Shown here one piece after another: positions 3,600 through 35,374 of a stretch of 38,404 bases of DNA. Where the stretch lies: positions 1 to 38,404 of the forward strand of contig WIXG01000564.1 in NCBI GenBank assembly GCA_009869945.1, written 5' to 3'. This stretch comes from Mesaphorura yosii. Lineage: Eukaryota; Arthropoda; Collembola; Poduromorpha; Tullbergiidae. The stretch's first letter is position 1, and every line of letters begins with the position of its first letter. Position numbers and translations under genes: made by a program. A model generated the notes under the pieces. The model saw only the letters and a program-made list of their open reading frames with translations. It did no database searches and was not told the origin of the DNA.

Positions 3600-4988
3600 G
3601 CATTTAGTATTTGGCAAATTAGTTCCGTGTCCTTCGTTCATTGACGTTCATCGTCTTCCTTCTTCGTTCATGGTAAATTGTAGCAGTTTCAGCTTTCAGC
3701 TAATAAACCGTCATATCACACGCTCTTCTAATACGGAAGTACACCGAATACAGTTACGTTTGATGTAGCCGAGAAAGCGAATAATAATTAACAAATTAAA
3801 TAGGTTACTAATTCAGATTAATCGTTAATGAACCAGAAACTAGTCGAAAGAAGAAGTTGGGCATGTCGGTGAAGCAAACGCAAAGCACTGGCGACTGACA
3901 TTAAAAACTGACACAGACACAGAGCTTGTAGCTCTGCGTTGTTCTAATTCGTTCAAACGGACAGCTTAATTTAATTAATGCTGAGCAAAGTCGAAAGTCA
4001 AGTCCAAGTGAGTTTAACGCAGAGTTATCACGCAAAACCTTCCTCACATTGCCTCACAATTTTCACAACCTACTCTTCTAGAATTATTAGAACTTCTTCT
4101 AATACGTTTAATCGTCTCCAGTATCGTATTTTAATGGATAATCGGCTATCTGGCCTCAAATTGGAAGTTTTTCCAGTCTCAACTGCTTTGCTACATGATT
4201 TTTGGACTTTGTTGCTAGAAAACAAAATTAAATGAACGAAAGCGTCTGAGAGCTTAAGATTAAGCATTAAGCCGTTAATTAAGGGCAGGGTAGGGCGCAG
4301 GGCGTGGGCGAATTCAGAATTCGGATCCGATTTGACTTGACTAACTAATACCGTGTACTTGTAGAAATAAAAACGTAACTCTTAATATCAACATTTACTA
4401 TATTCGCACTGGCATTAAAATTGACTAAATACACTTCTTCTTTTATACTTACGCGAGGCTAGGTGCTAATAAACTAGGCTAATGGTTGATTTAATGGCAA
4501 TGATTCGTTGATTGAAAATAAATGGTAGCAAATGGCCGTACGTAAAATGCGTGGGCGTCGAACTATCAACTAAAACGCGAGCATTCGAGTGAATTCTTGG
4601 CGAATTTCTCATAAAATTGTCAAAATTGCGTTGTAAAATTGTGAAAGTACTCTACTTAAAATAGTAGAAAAGTGACAAGAATCTAAAAATTTGTAGGAAA
4701 AGTCGAGATTCTCAGCTGCGTATGTCGCTCGTGCTCGCTCGTAGAAATAAAGTAGAAAAGTGATTGACGCTTCGAATTACGAGTAAGAAATTACAAGAGG
4801 ACAGTCGACACACTAAGTTATTAAGAGAAAGCTTAGGCTAATTACGATACACGAATGAGTCGATCCGCAGTCCGCGTCCGCGTGTTTGTGCGTGCTGGCT
4901 TGGCTTTAAGCCAATTGCTAGAACTTAGAAGACTTCTTTTGCTATTTCCTATTCAGTAGCGCAGCGCAGGAGTCCTTGCCTTAATTAA
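3600..4988. other. AT-rich intergenic/3' UTR stretch
   Basis: No coding gene is supported. It probably holds the end of the SR transcript and the 3' UTR of the minus-strand four-TM gene. A 13-base motif AGTAGAAAAGTGA occurs twice, near 4664 and 4751. Confidence 0.45.
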
Positions 4989-7450: not shown

Positions 7451-10400
7451 ATGTCATACTTTGGTAAGCTATAAAGTGCTGCATTGATGCTAAATAATTT
7501 CCTGCCTGTTTAGAGAAGCTAACTTGGAATTCAATTTCTTTTTCAGGTTCTGGCCAGAATCCTAACCATGGGATGGTTCGACCCGGCACTCCCATGCAAG
7601 CGCCTGGCGGTAGCATCATCCAACCCCAGCTTTTTAATCAGTTACAGTTTGGCCAGGCTGACGGAAGTGGATTTGATCATGGTGCAGGAGGTCATATTCA
7701 GTTGCTACAAGCGCCACAGCAGCAACAGCCTCCACAGTCGAATTTCCCGTTGAATTTCTTGACTGACCAATTGATGTCACAAGTTTCGACTCAGAGCCCA
7801 AACCTTCTTGGTACGATGGGGCTGCAGGGCTTGGCGGCGGGGTTCACGACAGTGCAGCAGAACATACAGCAAGTATCGAGCACGACACAATCATCCCCCA
7901 GCCAGCAACAACCTAAGCAGCGAGTTTTTACCGGAACCGTTACGAAAGTGATGGATACCTTTGGATTTATTGACGAGGACGTTTTCTTCCAGATGAAGTA
8001 AGCCAATTGTGGCCAACTTGCTTACAGCGCTAAACCGTAAGTAATTAATGAATTAATTCAATGCTTGCTTGGATTTTTCAGTGTTGTGAAAGGCCCCGTC
8101 TTGCCCAAAGCTGGTGATCGTGTTTTAGTGGAGGCGGACTTCAACGCAAATATGCCGTTCAAATGGAATGCTACTCGTGTCCAGATTGTCAACATGGCAG
8201 GCAACGCAGCAGGTGGCAAATCGCCTGGGTCATCCCAGCCGAATACTACAGCGACGATTCCCAGATCCATGCCACCGCCCCCGATCTTGTCAAACGCAGG
8301 GAGACATTCCAACAGTGCAAATAATCATCACCCTACATCCACGTCCGATCATCTAAACTTTAATCACGGTTCGATAATGTCAAATCCTCACTTTGGCCAG
8401 CAACACCAGACACAAAACAGTTCCAGTGGCGGTGGAATGTATGGACAGCAGACGAGAGGCAGTCCCAGCCAACAACAGCCGCCGCCTCGAATTGGACGAG
8501 TCCAGCCACTGCATTCTCAACAAGAACCGCTGATGCCAAATCCATTCCACCAAAGCTCAAGCCACTCAAATCCGAACCCACAGTCTTATCAGAGCAGTTC
8601 AAAAATGGATCGTGATCGTGATTTGGATTCTGGCCGTGATCGCGAACGTGATCTTTTGGATACGATAAATACGATTAAAGATCGAGGTAGAATTTCATAC
8701 AAATTGAGCCAGCTTTAGTTATTGTATTATCTTCGTATTAGAATCACTTGATATATTCTGCTTTTCTTTTCCATCTTTCCTAGATCGCGGACGGGAAAGG
8801 GACAGATCAAGAGATGTGATGCGTGACCGTCGTTCGAGGTCTCGATCAAGATCAAGGTCACGTGATAGGAATGATTGTAAGGGATTCCACGAGCTCCTTT
8901 GATTTTCTGAGCTTGAGTTAAGTATCTAAGTGAAGTTTACATCGCGGTCTTCTTTTGTGTATTACAGCTAGAAGAGATGACAGACGTGATCGGGAACGAC
9001 GCAGGAGTCCCGTCAGGAGCCCACCGCGTAGATCCTCGAGGGACAGAGACAGGAGACGTGAAAGGTAAGCTTGCGAAAGGCCAAGAATAATGAATTGTCA
9101 ACAGAGAGAAAGAGCTAAAATGTAACCTTTTACTTGGCAAAATAGGAGCCGAGATCGAGACGATGACCGGCGTCGCCGAGACAGGTTAGTTATTCAATGT
9201 CCCAAAGAAATCTTCGACCATGACCAGGAAGAGAAATTATCAAAATCATTCCGGTTGCTTTTGCATTTGCACTTGCAGGAGCCGCGATAAGGAAAAGTCT
9301 AGGTCAGACGTGAATAAAGACAGCAGCGATCGCCGTAAAGAGAGTATTTCGATTTCATCTCCAGCTTCTTACTCCTCCAGAAAGCGTTCACACTCTCGAG
9401 ACAGAGACAGCCGATCCGGGAGGGATGCCCCAGAGAAGTCGTCCTCGAGAAGGACGCGCTCACCTTCTCCAAGGAGGAAAACATTCTCGAGTTCAAAGTA
9501 TGCATTTGACACTCCCAGAGTTAAATTGGACACGTGAGTTAAATTAATTTACAAATTGCTAATTAATATTCCAAGAATGGTAATCTTTTAATTCATTTTT
9601 AATTCTCCATCTCACAGAATTGACTTTGACGTGGTTGAGCTGAAGCGAAGATACCGACACGCTCAAATCCCTCAGGATTTATTTATGGCGAGGTCTTGCT
9701 GGGCGAAATCATTTTCCATGCTAAACTTTCAGCCAGTTTGCTTACCGTCAATGGCCAGCCCGGTCCACATTTTCCGGAAGCATACGGACAAGGTCGATTT
9801 GGGAATATTTTTCAAGGAAAAGAACGAGGCAGGAGAGCTGGTCTCAAAAGTTGAGAAGATTTATGATGTCGAGGAGCCGGGGGATGCCAATTCAATATTT
9901 AGCGTGAAGGTAAATTGCATCGCAATGTGAGCTCGCTAAATTAGTCTAACTTGAATAAATTACATCTGAATTGCTTTAATTTCAGGTTTTGCTGCTATCC
10001 ATGCCAGAAAAGCAAATTCTCTTCCAGAAATGCTGCGGCTTGGCAGATGACAACGCGGCCAGATTTTATCTGAACAAGTTGATCAGCTTCATTGTTGGTA
10101 TCAAGGTAGAGAACTCAAGAACATAGGGACCTGAAGGGTATAAGAATTTTTTGTGCATTAATTACGGATATTTTTTATGGTGCAGACTACAGACAAGAAC
10201 GAACCAGCCGCAATCGGTGGAAGCTGGAGTGCTTCCTTGGACGGCGAAAACCCTCAGTCGGATCCACAAGTTTTGGTCAACACTGCTCGGAGAACATTCA
10301 AAACTTTTACTGGAATTGATCTGCAACCGTGCACGGCCTGGTACGCAATTTTAATTATGTTTCCTTCATTAACACATAAAAATCGCCCGTCGTCCTGCAA

Positions 10401-13400
10401 CTTAACGTGACGATTAGCCGAAAGACTGCAATCTGAAAGCTTCCCTTCCGGGTAAGGTTGGATTTGGATTAGATTGATAATCGATGGTTAGGAATTGGGG
10501 ACTCCAATTCACTGATTTTTGACTTCACGAGTTTGTTGTCTTTCTTCGCGTATCGCGTTATTTTATCGTCTTGTTTAATTTTTCTTTCTTACGTTTCTCT
10601 TCTTTGAATCCCGGAACCTTTGCTCGTCGTATTTAGGTTCCGCTTTATGGAGTTGTACTACAAGCGTGAAAGTGGAGTGCTGGAAACCGTCGTGTACTTC
10701 CTCCCGGACACTTCATCGTGCGCTCCGACGGCTGCGCAGTGGACGGCCCTTACCAGCGCTTACAGTTGGGTGTTTCACGGTGACGAGAAGAAGGAACCGC
10801 AAACGCCAGCGGAGCAGCAGATAGAAAAAGCTAGCAATGATGCAGACGCAGACGCTGTAGTTAACAAGAATAATTCACTTAAAACTAGCAAAGATAAGTC
10901 GACAGCGACGGTGACGGCGAAGGTGGAAGAGGCTTCCACGAAGGAGAAGGACGGCGAAGAGAAAGCAGAGACAGAGAAGGACTCCGACTCAAAGGCGAAG
11001 GCGGCTCTCACTTCCGAAGGAGATACTCCATCTAAAGACGAAGGAACGACAGCTCCAGGAGACGACGCCGCCACTAAAGCAGGGCTTGAAGATCCTTCTG
11101 CCGCCGTTGCTGATGGAAAGGAGGTTGCCGAATTTAAAGTGCTTAACATTTTGCATCTTATCTTAGCGTTAAGACTTTTATTGCTTTCTAACAATAATTG
11201 CAATTCCAATTTGCTTTGCATGGTGGTCTCAGTTGTGTATTTAAGAAGAGGTCGAAAGGAAAGCTTTTTTGTGTCTGGTTTCATGCAAACAAATGACGAC
11301 AATATCGAATATGATACGAAATTATCACCAGAAGACTAAACTCTATTTTAAATTCATGTCTTACAGTTAGACTCAACGATTCATATTTGTGTAGAAGTTT
11401 TAATTGTAGTTTGAACTGTTCAACAGATCGTAGCAAGCGACGGCGATGTGGAAATGAAGGACTTGCAGCCTGGAAAGGAAGCTGAGACTGCAGAAACTTC
11501 TGCGATGGATACCTCAACCACGAGCGTGGAGGCATCTCCAAGATTGAGTATGGCGGATCCAAAAAATATGAACGTACGTGAAAATTGAGCGGAGCTTCAG
11601 CGCTGTGACTGAAATCTTGTTAATGGGCAAGCTGTTAACTTGAGTTTGTGGTTTAATTAGGTTGCTAAACTGAAGGAGGAGCTTTCCGCCCGCAATCTGA
11701 GTACCAAGGGACTCAAGGCACAGCTGCTCGAAAGATTACTCGAAGCCCTGGAAGCAGAAAACAATTCTGCGAGTGCGGAGCCTGCTGCTGCGGTAAAGGA
11801 GGAGGCGCCAACCGGCAGCGAGCCTAAGATTGCTGTAAAAATTGAAGCGCCCGAAGAAAAAGATGAAAAAGTAGTCGAGGATTTGAAGGAAAAAGAAGAA
11901 TCTGAAGCCGAAATGCAGAATATTCAAGTTTTGGTTCCATTCACTGTCAACGTGGACGAGAAAACGAAAAAGTCTTGGGAACGTCGTTACCAGCTTCCCT
12001 CCAAGCCTCAAATGCTTATTCATCCATCCAACACTGCGAAAGATTTTGATTGCACTCAACTGTCGTTGGCTTCCTTGATGGATTTCACATCAACTGATTC
12101 GAGGCCACTGAAAGAACCAACGTTCGAGCTTTCTTTGTTTGGACATTTTTTTCACGAGATGCTCCAGTATGGATTCGGACTTCAAATCTTTAGGCAGCTT
12201 GTTGTTGAGGCGGAAAAGGCGAGAGAAAATATAAGTCCAAGCAAAGCTTTCTTGTTGCTCAGTTCATAAAATTCCTGACGAACTTTGCCATGTTTTTTTA
12301 GACGGAATCGGAAAAACCAATTAAAACTGAAAGGAAGCCTTCGGTTGGAGAGAAGGAGCAGAAAGAGAAAGAAGACGGAGGCAGCGACCCGAAGAAACCC
12401 AAATTATCCACCGATGAAGAAGCTCAGGCTCCAGTGATAATCACAACAGTTTATCCGGACCTCCTTTTCGCATTCTCGTACTTTGACTTGAGCCACGGTG
12501 GAACAATTCAAGCTTCAGATTTGGAGGAAGTTGTTTTTTCACTCGGCGTTGGTTTGAGCAGATCAGAGGTTAGATTACAATTACAAGAACTAAATTAAAT
12601 CAGTGCACTTTGAGGCTTCGACTTTAAACACTTTATGCTGTTGGCTTTCATTGTATTTTCAGGTCTTGAAAATGATTCAGAAGGTTGTGTCCCCAAAAGG
12701 AATCTTGAGATACCGCGATTGGACGGATAAACCCACCGGAAAGGACGGGCCGCTGACAGAAGAAGAGAACAAGGCGTTGATTGATAAACTGCTTAACATA
12801 ATTAAAGGTATTTTCAATGTTCATTGCATGAGTTAGGAGTTAGGCGTGGCTGTGATTTGCCTAAAACTATCTAATTATGGAATTCTTTTCTCTCCGCTTG
12901 ACTCTCCAGGAAATAGAACTCTGCTTCCAGTTTTCGTCTATCCGGACGAAGAAGATGCGTTGGCGTTCACGTCAGCAAGCGCACTCAAGTTTGAGCAGGG
13001 CGGAAGCGGATCGGACGGCGCAGTCGCGGGGTTGTTGAACCGAATCAAGAAATATGAGCAGGAGCGCTCTGTTCAGGCAGCAACATTAAATGTGACCAAC
13101 AACACACTCGGTACGTTATTCTGTTGACTCTCACATTCCTCACATGTCAGTCTCACTCCAAAATTCGAAATCCATCTTTTCATATCGTCCATTTTCTTCC
13201 AGTGCAATCCAAGAATCAAGCTGCAGAACTCAAACGTTCAAATGAGTCGTTAAACAAGGAGCTGACGCGTACAAAAGAGTCTCTCAAGAAGCTGGACGCT
13301 GAGTCACGATCAACAAGGGTAATGGCTATTTAAAATTAATTATTTTTAATTTCAATTAAAAATTTAATTCTACATTTGAACCTCTTGCAATTATTTCAGG

Positions 13401-17275: not shown

Positions 17276-20200
17276 ATGGCCGGACTGATTCTGACACCAC
17301 AAACGCAGTATGAATCGTCCACTGAAGAAGAGGACACCGTTCACTCCGAATCGGGAGTCTCCGACACCGGCTCAGCCTCCCACGACGAAGAGAATGTCCT
17401 GCAGCAGCAAAATGATCATGCTTCACCTGCTTCAAGTGTACGAGATTATCAGTACAAATACCAAGATCAAGCAGCACGAAAAAGATTTTATCCACATGAC
17501 TTTGTGGTTTTGAAAGAGAAGCAGTACCCTTACGAATGGAACCCAACGTAAGACGAAGATAAAGAGTCATTCATGCGATGATGCGATTCATGGTGCTAAT
17601 CTGTAAATCTGTACCTTCTGTCTTTTGATTTGATCTTTCGTTCCTGTCCCTGCAGTTTTGGAGTTTTGGTTGAACCAAATCACCCAAGCCTGGCACTCCG
17701 AGAATTTCGAGCCAAATCCAAAATCAGCCTGAGTAAATGGAATCCGGAGGAGGGACTCGAAGACTCGCTTTACGTTCAGTGGGGAAATTCATCCAGTGTT
17801 AAGCACGTTAAGCAAGATGACGTAAGTTATTTGCTGAAGCCTTTATACTGACAGCACACTCTTACACCTTGCTTTCATGAATTGACTGAATTCAGAATCC
17901 TATAAAAGTAGGTACGTGTTAACATTCCAGATTAGCGTGGTCGACCGTGTCATAGTAAAAGGGCAGAAGGTAGCTCGTCAAGACTGGACGATTGGCTACG
18001 TCGTAGACACACACGTTCGAGTCGCCGCGCAAATCATCGGTTCCAATCACGTGATAACTGATTTGGATGTGAAGAAGCTTAAGCCTGTCACCGTAAGTTA
18101 ATAACTTAAATCCTTTCGCTCCAGTATCCAGTTTTTCATTTTCCCATCATTTTCACTGCTTTACTGCTTTCCACGTTCAAACAGCCGATCGTTCGTGGTA
18201 TCGAAGTCCTTTACGACAGCAAATGGGTCGGCATCATCACGAGCGTCACTCGCTCCAATACATTTCGTCTGGAATCGTTCGCTCGTGGACAGAAATTCGT
18301 GCTCGAGACGACGGAGGCCGATGGCTTCATGAGGCAAGATCCGTACTCCACCCAGGCGATTAACATCCCCAAACAGCGCACTCGACTGTCGACGCGTCAG
18401 ATGGACCGTACAGTTTGGAAGGGGCGGGCCATGAGCACGCTCTGGAGAATGATGCTAAGATACATCATTCCAACACCGCTGGCGACTTATCTGGAAATTA
18501 AGGTGACGCTTAGCAGTAGCAGTAGCAGTGATTAACTTCAAGAGCCTTGGGCTTAAGCTAAGAAGCTTTTCTTTTCGTCGCAGCCCATCGGCATCACTGT
18601 CAAGTGGCTCCAGACGAAACCAACTGGAGACAATTTGGACCAGGCTTCGTTCTCTTCGATTGCACTGGCCAGCAGGGCGAGCTCGACGGAAATCTCCGCT
18701 TCAGACTTCTCCAAACTTGTCTTTGTCGGAACTCCAAACTACGAGACGATTCAACTGGGAAGCACACGCATGTACAAGCTGGACGAGAACGATCTGGTCA
18801 CCAGTTTCAATGTGTGGATGAGCGGATTCCGGTCACAGTTTCTCGGCGAGCCTCCCGGCCGTTACGCAAACAAAGTTTACCCTCCAGAGTCGATTCACTC
18901 TGCCCTCGCTCTGGTAAGTGACGCCACGAAAATTGCAATTGCAATTGCTAAAAAATCGCTTAAACGATTTCAGTCCACTCAATTCAAGGACGAAGTGCCA
19001 GTGAAGATTTTACTGAAACAAACTTACGCTACAATCGAATGGAACGTAAGTGAAGTGCCTGTGACGTTATTTTTGACACAATTCTTCGTTCGTTGCTTTT
19101 GGCTCCTCATCTGATTGAAGTATGCGTGCATTTATTTGCCCAACAGAATGGAGACGTCGAAACAATGCCATCTGCTGCCATTCCAGTCATCTGCATGTCA
19201 AGAGACAGTTCAGCTCACCGAACTGGAGCGGTGGTCGCAAGTTTCTTTGATTCGGAGGGCTCGAGCAAATACGGAGTTGTCCAGCACAGTGAAGAACAGG
19301 GTTAGTGACAAATTCGTCAGAAATCTCACCCTCTCTTGAAAGTTTCGCCTTGGCCGCTTTTGCGTAGTGCTCGAAAAAACAGGAACAGTTTTGGTCAAAT
19401 GGTTCCAACTGACTGAGCTTCCAAACGGAGATGAGGCGATTACGGATTTGGGCGTGAAAGAAGAGTCAGTTTACGACCTGCGCCCGCATCCCGAGTACAC
19501 TTTCTATCGGTTGCACACAAATCTATTCCTCAAGAAAAACCGGCCAGATGCCCCGTCGCAGGCTGGAGTCGTGCTGAACATTGACGTGCAAAATGGGACA
19601 ATGCGCCTTGGAGCAGCGTCCACCTCAGAAACATTCACGGTGTACCCGCATGAAGTTGTGCCACTGAATCAACGCTGCTACTGGAATTTCTTCACTCGTA
19701 AATGGGAGGTTGACGTCTTGCTTCCGCACGAGCACCATCTTGTAATTGAACGCAAGGTTCCAGGTAGGTCTACGTGGCGCGTGGTGAATTCGCAATTTGC
19801 GAATTGCCAGTCAGTTTTGCAAATTTTGTTCTTGTGCCTGCATTTTTTGTATTTTTTTCACCTTAGTTCGAGCTCGGGAGCCGATTTTCCTGCCGAGTTT
19901 GAACAACGACGGTTCCCGCCCCAAATTCCAATCTTGCCTGCTGGAAGAGCATCAGCTCCTGATTTCGGACTCTGCCCCTTCATCACACTATTTCTATACG
20001 GATCGGCTGAAGAATCTGACTTCAAATTTTGGTAAGATTCTCGCACGTGACTTGGAAGCGCTGGACAGCAATGTTCCAAGCGGAGCCTGGGTTCGAACTT
20101 ATGAAGATCGGTTGGTAAGCAAATTGACAGTAATCGCGAGTTTCTCCAATAATAGATTACTGTGCTAATCTCTAATTTGCATTTAGGATTTGTTCTCCGT

Positions 20201-21667: not shown

Positions 21668-24607
21668 TCACTCGAATTTCGTGTTCATGCTTTGTTCTTC
21701 ATTCCCACGGCCTTGACTGCTGTTGCTGTGGGTGTCCACTGGGTATGCCCACTCCAGGTCCAGTGAATGGGGCAGTTGAGGAAAGTGATACTGAGTTTGA
21801 GCCGTCAAAATTTGCGACTGTGACGCAAACTGCACTGGAGATGCCATAAATGGACGGACGTCGACGTCGACTCCGAAGTTCAAAGCCTGAGGCGGCGGCT
21901 GAGGCTGCGAGAGACTCCAAATTCGCTGGGGCCCAGGCGACTCGTGGCGGTTGCGGTCGCTGGCGGGTGATTCAGGCGGAAAATACGCTGCGAGGCCTTG
22001 GCTTAGTGCTCTGACATCGCTGGTAAAGTTCTGGAATGGGTTTCCATTGTCATTATAAGGATCAAGGTCTTCAAGGCGCAGATTGGAACTGACGTTTACA
22101 TCAATAAACACTGGATTGCCTTCAAAGGTTTTGGAAGACAATCCAAATCGATACTGTGGTTCGCCTTGGTGTTGACTGTGGCTTTGATTTCGATTCTGAT
22201 CCGCAGCCGCAACCGCAGCTGCTTCAGTGAAGCTTGGTTCTGGCTCCTCCACATTTGCACCTGTTCCCAGTCGGTCGCAATCGTAATAGACATCAGACGG
22301 ACGTGAGTAGCAGTGACTGGCTTCATTTCTTTCGAAGATGTGTGGCAGTGCCGATCCGGGTGTTGGCGGAGAAAGTTTAAGAATTTCTTCTCCGCCAGTT
22401 ATTGGCACAGACATGGGCGAGGGGACACGTGATCGCGCTACATCTACTTGACCAATATCTTCCATATCGATTATGTTTCCATCTTGGCCGATGTTCACAT
22501 CTTCTCCAGGGCTTGACAGCACTTCTGGAGGCTCGCACTCACGCCCAGACCAGAGCAATGACTGACAGTCTCTTAAATCCAGAAGCAGCGATGCCGATGC
22601 GAGTTCTGAATTTTCAGCGGTGCCGGATGACGGCGGGGGCAAGGAAAGATCGTCAACACGAGATAATGTGGATGCCGTCGACATCGGCGTAAGCGACCCA
22701 GAGCTCGTTCCCGTTCCCGTCCTCGAGAAAGGCGTCGCAAGCCATGCCGGCGTTCGGATTCGAATCTCACGAAGCCCTGTCTTAGCGTTCATAAACTCCT
22801 CCGAGAAGGGTTGAGCTTGAGCTTTGATTTCATCGTCTTCGCCTTCACCGTGGAGCGAAGCAACTGGAGCAACAGGCAGAATTTGTGAAAGGGATGTCGC
22901 TGAAGCCATCGACGCCTCCGACCCGCAGAGACTAAAGATTGGCAGGTGCAGGTGCTGAAGCACTCCTACTCTTGCGACAGCGTTTGGAGTTCCGTTGCCA
23001 GCTGCTGGAGCGGCCGAAATGGACACCCAAACATCAGGCCCAAGCAATTCTTCGACTGATTTTGCATTGGCATCTGCTTCTGCTTCTGCACTCTGGAAAT
23101 ACGAATACAGTGACTTCTGCACCATTTTCTTCTTGTGAGGGTGAGGAGCTCGTGGAGTGCTAAAATTGTGTCGTAGCGTTTCGTGATGGTGCCGCTGTTG
23201 CTGCTCTGGCGTTGGCCTTGACTCGAAGTAGGATGAAGGAGCAACACTTCCAGTCGGGCTCAGTGGAATCACCGTCTGACTATTCCCTTCTTCTCGCTGC
23301 TGATTCGCGTTTGTATTCGTGGAACTCGGCTTCACTCTGTTGCCATTTTCCATACCAGTAGTCACAGGGGAATTTGTCAGATCAATTACTTCAGGAGCCA
23401 CCCCGACGACACCGACGTCGATATTGATATCAATGTCGTTTGCCTCATCATTTGTTCGACCAGGAGAGTACCCGAGAAGAATTTCACTGAGAGATTGATT
23501 ATCATCATCTAAATCACGATCTCGATCAAGGACGCTGATGCTGGATCGTGATGGAGTAATTATGATGGATTCCGGGTCTTTGTCAGCTTGATACAGGACT
23601 GATTTTTGGTATGACAGTGACGTCTGATCCACTTCTGACCCATACCTTGGGCGTTGACCAGGTGTGCTCGCGACCACGATTTGCTGTAGGCAGCCTTCAA
23701 GCACGGAGTACACGGATTGGACGGATTCTGGGCTACGAATCGTGGCAGGACTTGGCTCTGGTGTTTGTGCAAATGCAAAGTAGGATCCTGCTTGGTTTCT
23801 GCCATAAGAAACAGGCACTGATGGCGCTGGACATGAGTGGAATGACGAAATGCTTGCTGCCGGACCGCCGACGCACCTACTGTGGCCACATGACTGCTGT
23901 TGCAAGCTGGAGCTTCTCGATATCGGTCTTGGAGTCGGAGTCCACGCAAGTGAACTAGAACTTAACTCGCTTTGAATGTCGTGCTCGTGAGGACTACTAC
24001 TTCGATACGATTCAAGTCTTGACCTGGAAGAACGAGGAAGAGAAGATGCCAACGAAGAGACTGAATAGGGGCTTAACGAAGACACTGGCTGGACTTCTTC
24101 AATGTCTTCGAGTTGCATTCTCTCCAACAGACGATCATTTTCTTGATACATTCCATGAATACTTTCACTGCTCACGCTTAGGCTCTCGTCGGATTGGATT
24201 TGCCGTGCACCGCCTCTGAGTCTGACTCCTTTCGGCGCCTTGTCAAGTTCCAGTTCATGTGAAAGTTGAAGAGCCAACGCTTGGCCAAATGTCGGGAGAC
24301 TTTCCTTCGCGAATGCCAGCAGTGGACATGTTCTCTTATTTTCCAGTCGCTGAATATAATTTCTTGAGGCAGCATTGTTATTTCGCCTTAAATCTGGCTG
24401 TTGCTGAGGCGGCCCGCCTGAACGGAAGTTGCTGTTGTTTCGATGATAATTCCAGCCATAGCCTCCTCCACCAGCACCGCCGGCGCCTCCCCCTCGTCCA
24501 CCACCACCACCATGATCGCCTCGGTTTGGGAAAAATCGATGGATTGGCCGATTGTTTTGGCGTTCCTGCTGCTGCAGACGATATCGGGCGCCTCCGACCC
24601 AATTCAT
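21668..24607 (-). CDS. 979-residue disordered protein with PIP box and SIM
   Basis: One uninterrupted coding exon on the minus strand, with ATG at 24607. The family is not recognised. The N-terminus is RGG/Gly-rich (about 30-60), followed by a predicted helix around LLAFAKESLPTFGQALALQL. Most of the rest is Ser/Pro/Gln-rich and looks disordered, with many SP sites. Two linear motifs stand out. VIDLT (407-411, in APEVIDLTNSP) is a textbook SUMO-interacting core. QKSLYSYF (497-504), after the basic run HKKKMV, fits the PCNA-binding consensus QxxLxxYF exactly. A weaker PIP-like NRPIHRFF lies at 19-26. These suggest a nuclear partner of SUMO and PCNA; that is inference. A spliced 5' leader is likely: the minus strand has a GTAAGC donor at 24767-24762. 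Confidence 0.88.
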   Translation of the reverse strand: MNWVGGARYRLQQQERQNNRPIHRFFPNRGDHGGGGGRGGGAGGAGGGGYGWNYHRNNSNFRSGGPPQQQPDLRRNNNAASRNYIQRLENKRTCPLLAFAKESLPTFGQALALQLSHELELDKAPKGVRLRGGARQIQSDESLSVSSESIHGMYQENDRLLERMQLEDIEEVQPVSSLSPYSVSSLASSLPRSSRSRLESYRSSSPHEHDIQSELSSSSLAWTPTPRPISRSSSLQQQSCGHSRCVGGPAASISSFHSCPAPSVPVSYGRNQAGSYFAFAQTPEPSPATIRSPESVQSVYSVLEGCLQQIVVASTPGQRPRYGSEVDQTSLSYQKSVLYQADKDPESIIITPSRSSISVLDRDRDLDDDNQSLSEILLGYSPGRTNDEANDIDINIDVGVVGVAPEVIDLTNSPVTTGMENGNRVKPSSTNTNANQQREEGNSQTVIPLSPTGSVAPSSYFESRPTPEQQQRHHHETLRHNFSTPRAPHPHKKKMVQKSLYSYFQSAEAEADANAKSVEELLGPDVWVSISAAPAAGNGTPNAVARVGVLQHLHLPIFSLCGSEASMASATSLSQILPVAPVASLHGEGEDDEIKAQAQPFSEEFMNAKTGLREIRIRTPAWLATPFSRTGTGTSSGSLTPMSTASTLSRVDDLSLPPPSSGTAENSELASASLLLDLRDCQSLLWSGRECEPPEVLSSPGEDVNIGQDGNIIDMEDIGQVDVARSRVPSPMSVPITGGEEILKLSPPTPGSALPHIFERNEASHCYSRPSDVYYDCDRLGTGANVEEPEPSFTEAAAVAAADQNRNQSHSQHQGEPQYRFGLSSKTFEGNPVFIDVNVSSNLRLEDLDPYNDNGNPFQNFTSDVRALSQGLAAYFPPESPASDRNRHESPGPQRIWSLSQPQPPPQALNFGVDVDVRPFMASPVQFASQSQILTAQTQYHFPQLPHSLDLEWAYPVDTHSNSSQGRGNEEQSMNTKFE

Positions 24608-25206: not shown

Positions 25207-26264
25207 TCAAAAAGGAGCGAGTGCGTCCGCCAGAGTGGACCCACAGGGGCCTTCAATATGGAACCTGTAGAAATGAGAATAAAACAATAAAATTTGCACC
25301 AATCAAGTCCCAGAAGCAGAGGGCCGTCAGATTATGGAATAACGCACTGGAAAATATCCGTCGCTGGTGTCTTCTCCAAATTAAATTCAGCTACTGGCAT
25401 TCCACGGGCGACAACGCGTGGCCCAAACTCGTTTGCAGGCTCCACGACAGAGGACGTCCCCGCTACGAGGCAAAGGTCGCAATTATCCAGCCATTCGTCT
25501 GAAACGCAGCAAATTCAACTGGAAAGATAGATAATGTTGTTCCAGACTAGAGAAACTACTTACAGCAAGTCGTCATGTGGGCGTCGGTCGGGTCTTCGTC
25601 GAACCAAATTATGTCCGGCCTGAGCAGACCGCCACAGCCCGCCCTTTGACAGCGTGGAAGGAATTTCCGTGGTATGTTGGCGTTCAGGCCCTCAGGCGAG
25701 CCTTTCCCGAGCAGCGCGGGACAAATCGGGCTCGCGTAGTTGGTCGTGATTTCTTTGCATGTGGTACACTGGACTTTGTACAAAGAACCGTGCAGCTCGA
25801 TCAAATCCGTGGGTGTCGGCTTCGTACCCGTGCCCGTGCTCGGGCTGAGAGCGACCGCAGCTTTTGTATGGAGTTCGTCAATGTTTTGGGTGATGATCAC
25901 AAACTTTTTCCCGTCACGCTCAAATCGCTTCTGGCATTCAGCGAGGACTTTGTGAGCCTGCGAGCGCGAAATTTTTCGGAATTAGCCTGTCTGATTAAAT
26001 TTTAATGCATCTTACCGTGTTTGGCTCCTTATTCTTCGCTACTTCCCTTCTGTAATGATACAGCTCCCACACGAGCGAAGGATTCCGTTGAAAAGTGTCG
26101 TATCGTGCAATCTGCTGAATTTCGAACCCTCGCCAGTACGAGTCTGCCCCTCGAAACGTTGGAATTCCTGACTCGGCTGATACGCCAGCGCCAGTGAGCA
26201 CGACGACGTAGGTGCTGCGCTGGAAAACTTTGCGAAATTCGATCAGACTTGACGACGGAGCCAT
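25207..26264 (-). CDS. SIRT5: SIRT5-type NAD+-dependent lysine deacylase
   Basis: Four exons on the minus strand: 26264-26016, 25957-25564, 25498-25348 and 25264-25207, giving 283 residues. Visible sirtuin motifs are [15 protein letters not shown] (25-39) for NAD binding, ITQNIDELH (105-113), catalytic His139 in ELHGSL, and zinc cysteines CTTC (147-150) and CQRAGC. The class III pair that reads negatively charged acyl groups is kept as Tyr69 and Arg72 in LYHYRREV, so desuccinylase/demalonylase/deglutarylase activity is predicted. The last exon ([17 protein letters not shown]) is short but restores the usual C-terminus. The start aligns with an internal methionine region of vertebrate SIRT5, so no mitochondrial presequence is visible; an upstream 5' exon or a cytosolic form are both possible. 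Confidence 0.93.
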
Positions 26265-31504: not shown

Positions 31505-31995
31505 TTACTTCTCAATTGTGTAATAATTACTACCGCCATTAACACCTGTACCCGAATAACGGATAAGACGTCGACTTGTCGGATGACCATTCCATTGATC
31601 CACGACGTTTATACCATCAGATTGACATGATTCAAAAATGGCAGCATGACGATCTGGGGGTCCGTATGTGTTTCCTGGAGCTGAAAAAACTGCGATGGCA
31701 GTTCTTGCCGGGATGCTCGCACAATTGGATTGGACATGGGTGCCACGTTTCCAGGAACCAGTTGTAAGACCCGTAAGACCAGCACATTGCGTCTTGACCA
31801 CGGATGTACACTCTTGACCATCTGGAGTTAGGATGTAGCCACCTGACATTGGTGGCAATGTACAGGAATTCTGTAAAGATTAATTCGATTAAAAATATTT
31901 ATAAGACCAAGATAGAACTGGTAGTCACTTACAAATGCCAAAGAGTAGTTGGAAAGACATCCCAGGAGCGCCACTACCAAAATTAAGAAAGCCAT
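31505..31995 (-). CDS. Secreted BPSL0067 / NlpC-P60-like amidase of bacterial type
   Basis: Two exons on the minus strand: 31995-31933 and 31870-31505, with a GTAAGT donor and TTTACAG acceptor, giving 142 residues. Exon 1 is a complete signal peptide (MAFLILVVALLGCLSNYSLAF). Exon 2 is a single compact domain: DGQECTSVVK (Cys42), GSWKRGTHV, TAIAVFSAPG, RHAAIFESC (His96), NVVDQWNGH (Asp112) and a C-terminal NYYTIE. This order matches, from memory, the bacterial BPSL0067 family. The Cys then His-Ala-Ala-Ile pattern is that of NlpC/P60/CHAP-like peptidoglycan amidases. The mature part has five cysteines (24, 42, 50, 71, 103), allowing two disulfides plus a free catalytic Cys42. An antibacterial secreted hydrolase acquired from bacteria is the likeliest reading. 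Activity and family need a structure or profile search. Confidence 0.8.
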
Positions 31996-32077
31996 CGAAG
32001 ATCGTGTCGATGTGTTGATTCTGAAGTTTTACTGTCAAAATCTCATCAGTAGTTAATTGGCTCGAGTTGTACACCTT

Positions 32078-32086
32078 CCTTATATA
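32078..32086 (-). promoter_or_regulatory. TATA box of the amidase gene
   Basis: The minus strand reads TATATAAGG about 83 bp upstream of the amidase start codon. A transcription start about 30 bp downstream would leave a leader of roughly 55 bases. Further upstream, to about 32440, nothing else is supported. Confidence 0.6.
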
Positions 32087-32452
32087 ACGTGAACCCTTCT
32101 CATGAAGCAGAATCATAATCACGAGACCGTTTGAGCAGCTGCCGATTTTGCTCTTTGGATTTCTGCAAGCGAGACATTTGTTTGCCGATTCGAATACAAA
32201 TATATCTGTAAATTGATTTAGTTGTTCGCTTTTCACGAGAATTGTTGCGGCAGAAAAATGGTGCAATAATTTGACCAGTTGTGGTGCTCAAAGACCGTCA
32301 AAGGACATTCACAGAGGTCACAAGAGCTTGTTTTCGCCATTTGGTAGTCAAACTTATGAGTTGTGAACCAACGACGAAATGAAACTAACAACAGTAAAAT
32401 GCATGAAATATTTTATTATTCTTATACACAAATTAATACACGAGAGAAATTC

Positions 32453-34162: not shown

Positions 34163-35374
34163 TTAGAATGCAATCATGAGATCAATCGTATAGCACATGA
34201 TTCGATCAAAGTATGCCATGGCCTCCATCGATTCGACGGTGCAGAGCGAGCCGATGCCCACGCCCAGCGCAGGGAACGACTTTAGCTCGAGGAGAGTCTC
34301 CTTCCCCTTCTTTCTACACTTCCACTCGTCCAGAAGTTCTCGACTCTTCTGGCGGACGCGGAAGCAGGCCGGGTAGAGGACGAGAGCGCAGGTGATAGCG
34401 ACACTGCCCAAGCTCGGCGGGAGGAAGTAGGCGGGGAACCCAAGCGTGTCGATCATTTCGAGGGTCGCGTAATTGCAGCTGACTGCGATCGACATGATGG
34501 AGGCCGTGAAGACGGGCATGATTAGGGCTTTGAGGGCCGTGTCGAAATTGGCACCGAGGAGCTGCAGTTGGCGATGAAGCCTCAGTCCGCCGTGGCCGTG
34601 GAGTTCCCCAGCAAGCTTTAGTGCCCCCGTGATGAGATGGAGGTAAATATACAGCGTGACCGTGTAGAACGTGATTACGCCCGCGCCGTAGTAGCTCGCG
34701 ATGGACTGCAAGAGTGCCCAGGGCACCAGATGCCAGCGGGAACGACGGGTGTACTCAAACAGCTTGCTGGGGAACATCGGGGCGTCGTAGCCCATGACCA
34801 TCGTCACGAAGAACATTTCGGCGCAGACAAGCGTACTCATTGCCATCAGAAGGAGGATTATTTTACCAGCTTTATCTTTCGCTTTTCCACGCCGCCGCCG
34901 CCCTGCCGAACTTCCGTCACCGTCGCTTTCACCGTTCCCGCCATCGTCGTCGTAGTCGTAGCCGTCCTGCACCTGCTGCTGCAGTATCAGTTTTTCATTC
35001 AAGGTGAGGATCCGATTGATGAACAAGCATACTTCGTCCCCGTTCAGGCTCGTGTTGACGTTGTACAGCGCCACGTTCGCCCAGCAGAGCCACCCGCAGC
35101 AGGAGAAAATCAGGAACCCGGCTTCCGTGTCGGCGTAGAGTGCCTCCTGAATCGTCCGGATCGTGATGAAGACCGTGTACACTACAGAGAACCCCGCCCT
35201 GGCGTGCCAGCTCCAAAATTTATACCCGCGCCCGCGCTTGGCGTGGACCAGCCGCCAGCTTCCGCTGGCGCTGCTGCTGGAGGAGCCTTCCCCAACTTCA
35301 AGGGGACTGGAGCCGATGATGTGCGCAAACTTGTAGAATTCACGAAGTACACCGATTGTGTAGGTCGACAACAT
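34163..35374 (-). CDS. Insect-type seven-TM chemoreceptor-like protein (Gr/Or superfamily)
   Basis: A single uninterrupted exon on the minus strand, 403 residues. Hydrophobic segments lie at about 59-77, 86-104, 172-194, 218-249 (long, may be two), 282-302, 316-338 and 376-403. Length, helix pattern and the C-terminal part (FPALGVGIGS... ending TIDLMIAF) fit divergent arthropod gustatory/odorant receptors, which form ligand-gated cation channels in sensory neurons. A hydrophilic insert at 134-171 (YDYDDDGGNGESDGDG then GRRRRGKAKDK) lengthens the loop before the third segment. The canonical TYhxxxxxQF motif of insect Grs is not seen, so the class is inferred from architecture. The long open frame on the opposite strand (34637-35395) is a shadow. 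Confidence 0.7.
   Translation of the reverse strand: MLSTYTIGVLREFYKFAHIIGSSPLEVGEGSSSSSASGSWRLVHAKRGRGYKFWSWHARAGFSVVYTVFITIRTIQEALYADTEAGFLIFSCCGWLCWANVALYNVNTSLNGDEVCLFINRILTLNEKLILQQQVQDGYDYDDDGGNGESDGDGSSAGRRRRGKAKDKAGKIILLLMAMSTLVCAEMFFVTMVMGYDAPMFPSKLFEYTRRSRWHLVPWALLQSIASYYGAGVITFYTVTLYIYLHLITGALKLAGELHGHGGLRLHRQLQLLGANFDTALKALIMPVFTASIMSIAVSCNYATLEMIDTLGFPAYFLPPSLGSVAITCALVLYPACFRVRQKSRELLDEWKCRKKGKETLLELKSFPALGVGIGSLCTVESMEAMAYFDRIMCYTIDLMIAF

Follow-up and report, generated by a model that had tools for sequence, protein, structure and literature searches.

A Predicted Secreted Amidase of the Tae2/BPSL0067 Family, Probably Acquired from Bacteria, in the Springtail Mesaphorura yosii

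Introduction

Springtails live among dense soil bacteria. On a contig of the springtail Mesaphorura yosii (GenBank assembly GCA_009869945.1, contig WIXG01000564.1), a short gene on the minus strand encodes a protein with the motif order of a bacterial cell-wall amidase. An earlier note on this DNA had proposed that the gene came from bacteria and now encodes a secreted animal protein, with a history similar to that of the domesticated amidase effector (dae) genes of ticks and mites. The questions raised by this locus are to which family the protein belongs, how its gene entered an animal genome and what the protein might do there. These questions were addressed with the window, i.e., the whole analyzed stretch of 38,404 nucleotides (positions 1 to 38,404 of the contig, forward strand), with the 93-Mb genome and with protein, genome, plasmid and viral sequence collections.

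Results

Structure of the Gene

The gene at 31995-31505 (-) consists of a leader exon, a 62-bp GT-AG intron and a 121-residue exon, and, with its TATA box and AATAAA signal included, the whole compact eukaryotic gene covers 32086-31456 (-). The TATA box (TATATAA, 32086-32080, -), found by pattern match, is ~85 bases 5' of the start codon at 31995 (-). The coding part of exon 1 (31995-31933, -) contains 21 codons and encodes the hydrophobic leader MAFLILVVALLGCLSNYSLAF, which was judged by eye to be a signal peptide. The predicted intron that follows (31932-31871, -) is in phase 0 and reads GTAAGT...CTTTACAG. Exon 2 (31870-31505, -), recognized by its match to NF033857, encodes a 121-residue Tae2/BPSL0067-type amidase domain and ends with the stop codon, ~43 bases 3' of which is the AATAAA polyadenylation signal (31461-31456, -). 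The reading frame is intact. Thus, each element of the eukaryotic gene structure described in the earlier note, including the separate leader exon, was found at the sequence level. The splice joints and the leader are predicted from the sequence, and the protein is predicted to be secreted from a leader that was read by eye. An Rfam scan of the window yielded no match.

Family Identity

A scan of NCBIfam with the window protein yielded one match, NF033857 BPSL0067 (E 1.8e-12, 47.5 bits), whose cut-off is 27 bits. Membership in the BPSL0067 family, as had been claimed from motifs, is thus borne out by the profile search. In a six-frame scan of the genome with BPSL0067, the window gene scored 46.8 bits. 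Given that the NF033857 score is over the cut-off and that a paralogue 45% identical to the window protein is present in the same genome, the match to this family is beyond chance. The score of the window protein against Pfam CHAP was below the cut-off (18.3 bits; cut-off 26). A single-sequence protein search with 31 candidates found only a near-copy of the window protein and one remote protein (E 4.7e-3).

In the PDB, the window protein alone matched entry 6win, "Type 6 secretion amidase effector 2", weakly (E 0.049), whereas the paralogue matched it with an E of 7.1e-8 and a profile from nine relatives with an E of 1.1e-19. Among Tae entries, these PDB sequence searches found 6win alone. Because the paralogue and the nine-relative profile match 6win, the BPSL0067 family is, as far as sequence profiles tell, the Tae2 family. 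Tae2 is reportedly also the source family of tick Dae2, a link attributed to Chou et al. in 2015. The suggestion that the window gene belongs to a family different from that of the dae genes is therefore not supported.

Copies in the Genome

Besides the window gene, the genome contains a better-scoring intact paralogue and a broken third copy, and the three copies are on three contigs. The paralogue, on contig C975, is 45% identical to the window protein and scored 71.4 bits against BPSL0067. The introns of both intact genes are near the leader boundary; the phase is 0 for the window gene and, as read by eye, 1 for the paralogue, a difference that does not speak for a shared intron. Between the two intact copies, dN was 0.59 and dS, which is near saturation, was 1.69; with this limit on dS, the values suggest purifying selection on the intact copies. 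The third copy (contig C298, 24683-24995, +; loci L003 and L004) matches the paralogue in two frames, with identities of 74 and 71%, and is on sequence grounds a pseudogene because it contains in-frame stops and a frameshift. A fourth place in the genome, on C106, scored 16.7 bits (E 0.5) and was left as a chance match. An ORF near the paralogue (locus L002, 44-394, -) had no Pfam match at 0.01; its sequence resembles part of a family 3 glycoside hydrolase.

Homologs and Phylogeny

The profile search of proteins yielded 165 matches, of which 120 were listed. The animal-type sequences apart, all 14 taxon-named sequences among these 120 are from bacteria, including Caballeronia, Paracidovorax, Azohydromonas, Rhodanobacter, Dyella, Acidovorax, Rhodoferax, Massilia, Methylobacterium, Brevundimonas and a Rickettsiales MAG. 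One match, P0003, differs from the window protein by one residue over 114 and looks like the protein of the same species, recovered from an environmental sample. Another, P0005 (145 aa, from a 529-base contig), shares 74% identity with the paralogue, in an alignment that covers 74% of the latter. A leader is present, as are the five cysteines of the window protein and a sixth in the divergent tail, and P0005 was classed as animal-type on account of the leader and its likeness to the paralogue. P0005 departs from the family after GITV, where a second intron or a frameshift is possible.

In bacteria the family is sparse. Within one phylum, 3 of 398 genomes contained it, or 2 of 397 if the centre genome, which had been chosen for the gene, is left aside. 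The genome contigs contained one locus (42 candidate stretches) and the plasmids three records, and no family match was found in the phage collection or the viral contigs. In the Caballeronia locus (L019), an ORF of the STY0301 family with a leader peptide is at 4278-4625 (+), and its start is overlapped by the Tae2-type gene. This ORF, the one bacterial neighbor that was scanned, is likely an immunity protein, and the layout resembles that of effector-immunity pairs. By eye, similar leader-bearing ORFs adjoin the gene in L015, L017 and L021, and no such ORF was evident beside the genes of Marivita (L005) and Rhizobium (L020).

The three animal-type sequences, i.e., the window protein, the paralogue and P0005, were clustered together in one clade inside the family, both in a tree of 41 rows (98/88) and in a tree of 38 rows from which the three longest rows had been removed (100/97), the bootstrap being not settled in either case. 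The nearest row in the 41-row tree was a Marivita MAG on a long branch; in the 38-row tree, the animal-type clade took no well-supported place beside any one donor group (68/23). The bacterial origin that had been claimed for the gene is supported by this one clade within a family whose 14 taxon-named members, among the 120 listed of 165 matches, are bacteria. The direction of transfer would accordingly be from bacteria to the animal, as inferred from this placement.

A related matter is whether the springtail gene stems from a transfer of its own. A single ancient acquisition by arthropods, common to ticks and mites and followed by vertical inheritance with losses, would agree with the window gene being in the same family as tick Dae2. 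It would, however, presumably need many losses across arthropods, and no arthropod-named match was found among the 120 listed of 165, in a database that may hold few animals. We regard this as rather unlikely. No tick-named sequences were among the matches in the sequence searches.

Conserved Residues and Cysteines

The alignment contained 121 non-animal rows and the three animal-type rows; P0003 (an allele), P0019 (a duplicate of L015), P0002 (the leader) and the 45 unlisted matches were left out. In the numbering of the 142-residue precursor, Cys42 in GQEC, His96 in HAAI and the motifs VVDQW and NYYTIE are at the positions given for them in the earlier note. Cys42 is C21 of exon 2 (codon at 31810-31808, -) and His96 is H75 (31648-31646, -), and by alignment the two are the predicted catalytic residues. 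C21 is a cysteine in 120 of the 121 other rows, the remaining row having a gap, and in all three animal-type rows, while H75 is a histidine in 121/121 and 3/3 rows, respectively. In addition, W40, G43 and Q92 are invariant in the 121 other rows and are all present in the window protein.

These residues are relevant to the possibility that the copy in the window is no longer catalytic and is kept as a binding or regulatory protein, with the C975 paralogue as the working enzyme. The window copy is indeed the more diverged of the two, by score (47.5 versus 71.4 bits) and by end branch in the 41-row tree (1.13 versus 0.039). However, C21, H75, W40, G43 and Q92 all persist in an intact frame, and a loss of catalysis appears improbable to us.

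The mature part contains the five cysteines that had been counted before, at residues 3, 21, 29, 50 and 82 of exon 2. The earlier note had read them as two disulfides and one free catalytic thiol, the disulfides being an adaptation to secretion, and the notion of such an adaptation may apply to one pair but not to the other. At the position of C3, 101 of the 121 other rows have a cysteine, and at that of C29, 98 do. Because cysteine is common there, C3 and C29 may both derive from the donor, although the alignment is poor between C3 and C21. Different from this pair, C50 (codon at 31723-31721, -) and C82 (31627-31625, -) are, by alignment, present in 3/3 animal-type rows and in 0/121 others, 115 of which have a gap at C50. 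The broken copy on C298 reads NC and SC at the places of C50 and C82, and the non-animal row P0124 has a cysteine one column off C50 and none at C82. Since both residues flank neighboring strands in the expected fold, it is fair to regard C50-C82 as a putative added disulfide.

Contig and Genome Context

The contig carries several other genes with animal domains. At 7573-11339 (+), Pfam matches identify a split S1-like domain (profile positions 1-26 and 27-58, with a predicted intron between the two parts) followed by DBC1, a domain pair from which we take the gene to be CCAR-like. An ORF at 19367-20035 (+) contains a UBE2O SH3-B domain (23.4 bits; cut-off 22), and an ORF at 25556-25900 (-) matches the SIR2 domain. 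Two further ORFs on the minus strand had no such match. One, at 34163-35374, has a single exon and encodes 403 residues, with numerous hydrophobic stretches and no Pfam, NCBIfam or PDB match, and it resembles an arthropod gustatory receptor; the other, at 21668-24607, has 979 residues and no Pfam or PDB match at 0.01. None of the 10 ORFs of at least 100 aa examined for an immunity-type gene near the window gene matched a family over its cut-off, a search from which short or intron-split genes escape.

The earlier note had named bacterial contamination of the flanks as a reading to be checked, and the CCAR-like, UBE2O and SIR2 matches answer it. That the gene comes from a contaminating bacterium or a symbiont contig might be argued from the bacterial identity of all 14 taxon-named listed sequences outside the animal type. 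Such an origin is nevertheless extremely improbable given the intron, TATA box and AATAAA of the gene itself, the animal domains of the flanking genes (barring a chimeric contig), the occurrence of copies on three contigs and the lack of a sigma-70-type site in 31900-32300. A Tae-family gene with an intron, a TATA box and an AATAAA signal on an animal contig is what characterizes a Dae gene, and all of these were found here at the level of sequence.

The genome also contains 66 matches to the RR cuticle domain and an isopenicillin N synthase (IPNS) gene, which is a springtail hallmark. The IPNS gene (contig C420, ~6945-5766, -; locus L029) has three exons, whose identities to the fungal enzyme are 54, 70 and 61%, respectively, with GT-AG joints assigned by eye. 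The IPNS gene is followed on its own strand, after ~360 bases, by an ORF that encodes 238 residues or more and is rich in hydrophobic stretches. According to the accessible part of the springtail genome paper, IPNS occurs in Folsomia candida and was taken from microbes (PMC5490193).

Other host markers were less telling than IPNS. In the PDB, the six single-domain entries with the highest scores for the arginine kinase of the genome (589-603 bits) include decapod ones, against 551 bits for Limulus, 543 for a spider and 529 for Daphnia, a result that leans pancrustacean except for the low place of Daphnia; two two-domain entries had higher total scores. Triosephosphate isomerase did not separate the candidate groups (vertebrate entries 357-366, shrimp 349, tick 346). 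Two CAHS probes, meant to detect a tardigrade, gave no match in the genome, a negative of little weight. LNR domains, which are expanded in the copepod Oithona, gave three matches, all in one location, and COX1 was not found.

Discussion

Together, these results make it quite probable that a Tae2/BPSL0067 amidase gene was transferred from bacteria to the ancestry of springtails and is now a eukaryotic, duplicated gene with a secreted product. The protein is likely a secreted antibacterial peptidoglycan amidase, as judged from its family and predicted leader. We propose that the gene of a Tae2-type type VI secretion effector would have passed from a bacterium into springtail ancestry, gained a leader exon, an intron and a eukaryotic promoter, and then been duplicated. 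The precursor would enter the secretory route, where the leader would be removed and C3-C29 and C50-C82 would close as disulfides. By analogy with papain-like NlpC/P60 amidases, Cys42, activated by His96, would attack an amide bond in the stem or bridge of peptidoglycan. Once secreted, the amidase would lyse bacteria in the gut or in body fluid, a role like that of tick Dae2. It would reach Gram-positive walls directly, but Gram-negative walls only after opening of the outer membrane.

The amidase could instead be digestive, i.e., it could open the bacteria eaten with soil and litter and so serve feeding rather than guarding. Springtails eat microbes, and two diverged intact copies would fit a division of labor. 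Many degradative genes have also been acquired by F. candida, according to the accessible part of the genome paper (PMC5490193). Tick Dae2 of the same family, however, is described as a defence protein in the part of PMC11347951 available, and the two roles can coexist. We consider a digestive role plausible, with the odds somewhat against it.

With regard to the antibacterial role, it can be proposed further that springtails acquired Tae2 independently of ticks and mites and that, together with the horizontally acquired beta-lactam pathway, the amidase, stabilized by its putative added disulfide, would form a two-part borrowed antibacterial arsenal, in which one product makes an antibiotic and the amidase opens cell walls. 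This proposal is tentative, and we would give it a little less than an even chance. A hexapod copy of Tae2 would mean that the same interbacterial weapon served very different arthropods and would allow a test of repeated domestication. In addition, an enzyme that cuts the cell wall would then stand beside the beta-lactam genes already known from springtails.

Comparison with Known Systems

Domesticated Tae genes are already known. Besides those of ticks, domesticated amidases in mites and other eukaryotes were reportedly described by Chou et al. in 2015. Ticks are the animals named in the accessible parts of the literature on domesticated amidase effectors (PMC11347951, PMC7962413), and by title, the papers found that name such effectors concern ticks or a tick-borne pathogen, while none of the listed papers that mention Dae2 is on springtails. 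The springtail genome paper reports 809 foreign genes, and its main text contains no mention of amidase, peptidoglycan or type VI (PMC5490193); because of this large number, a Tae2 entry in its supplementary gene lists is quite possible. The main text of a paper on horizontal gene transfer in shrimp likewise does not mention amidase, peptidoglycan or cell wall (PMC3750580). Within the literature searched, a springtail Tae2 gene thus appears to be novel.

Similar to bacterial Tae2/BPSL0067 proteins (NF033857; 6win), the window protein has the same domain, the same length, the cysteine and histidine pair and the DQ motif. Different from them, its gene has a leader and an intron in place of type VI delivery, no immunity-type ORF was recognized among the 10 ORFs beside it, and cysteines 50 and 82 are added. 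Tae1, Tae3, Tae4, NlpC/P60 and CHAP proteins are, like Tae2, understood to be cysteine amidases of peptidoglycan. Among these, Tae1, Tae3, Tae4 and CHAP are set apart from the window protein, as the PDB searches gave Tae2 only and CHAP was below its cut-off. Four Tae families are named in the accessible part of PMC4832377.

Dae2 of Ixodes is, like the window gene, an animal gene and is said to come from the same source family; its host, however, is an arachnid and not a springtail, and the likeness is at the family level only. According to the accessible parts of the respective papers, tick Dae2 has an antibacterial use (PMC11347951, PMC7962413) and reaches Gram-negative walls only after the outer membrane has been opened (PMC7962413). 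Finally, springtail IPNS is similar to the window gene in being an antibacterial gene acquired from microbes and present in the same genome, but it makes an antibiotic precursor rather than cutting the wall and is an unrelated protein.
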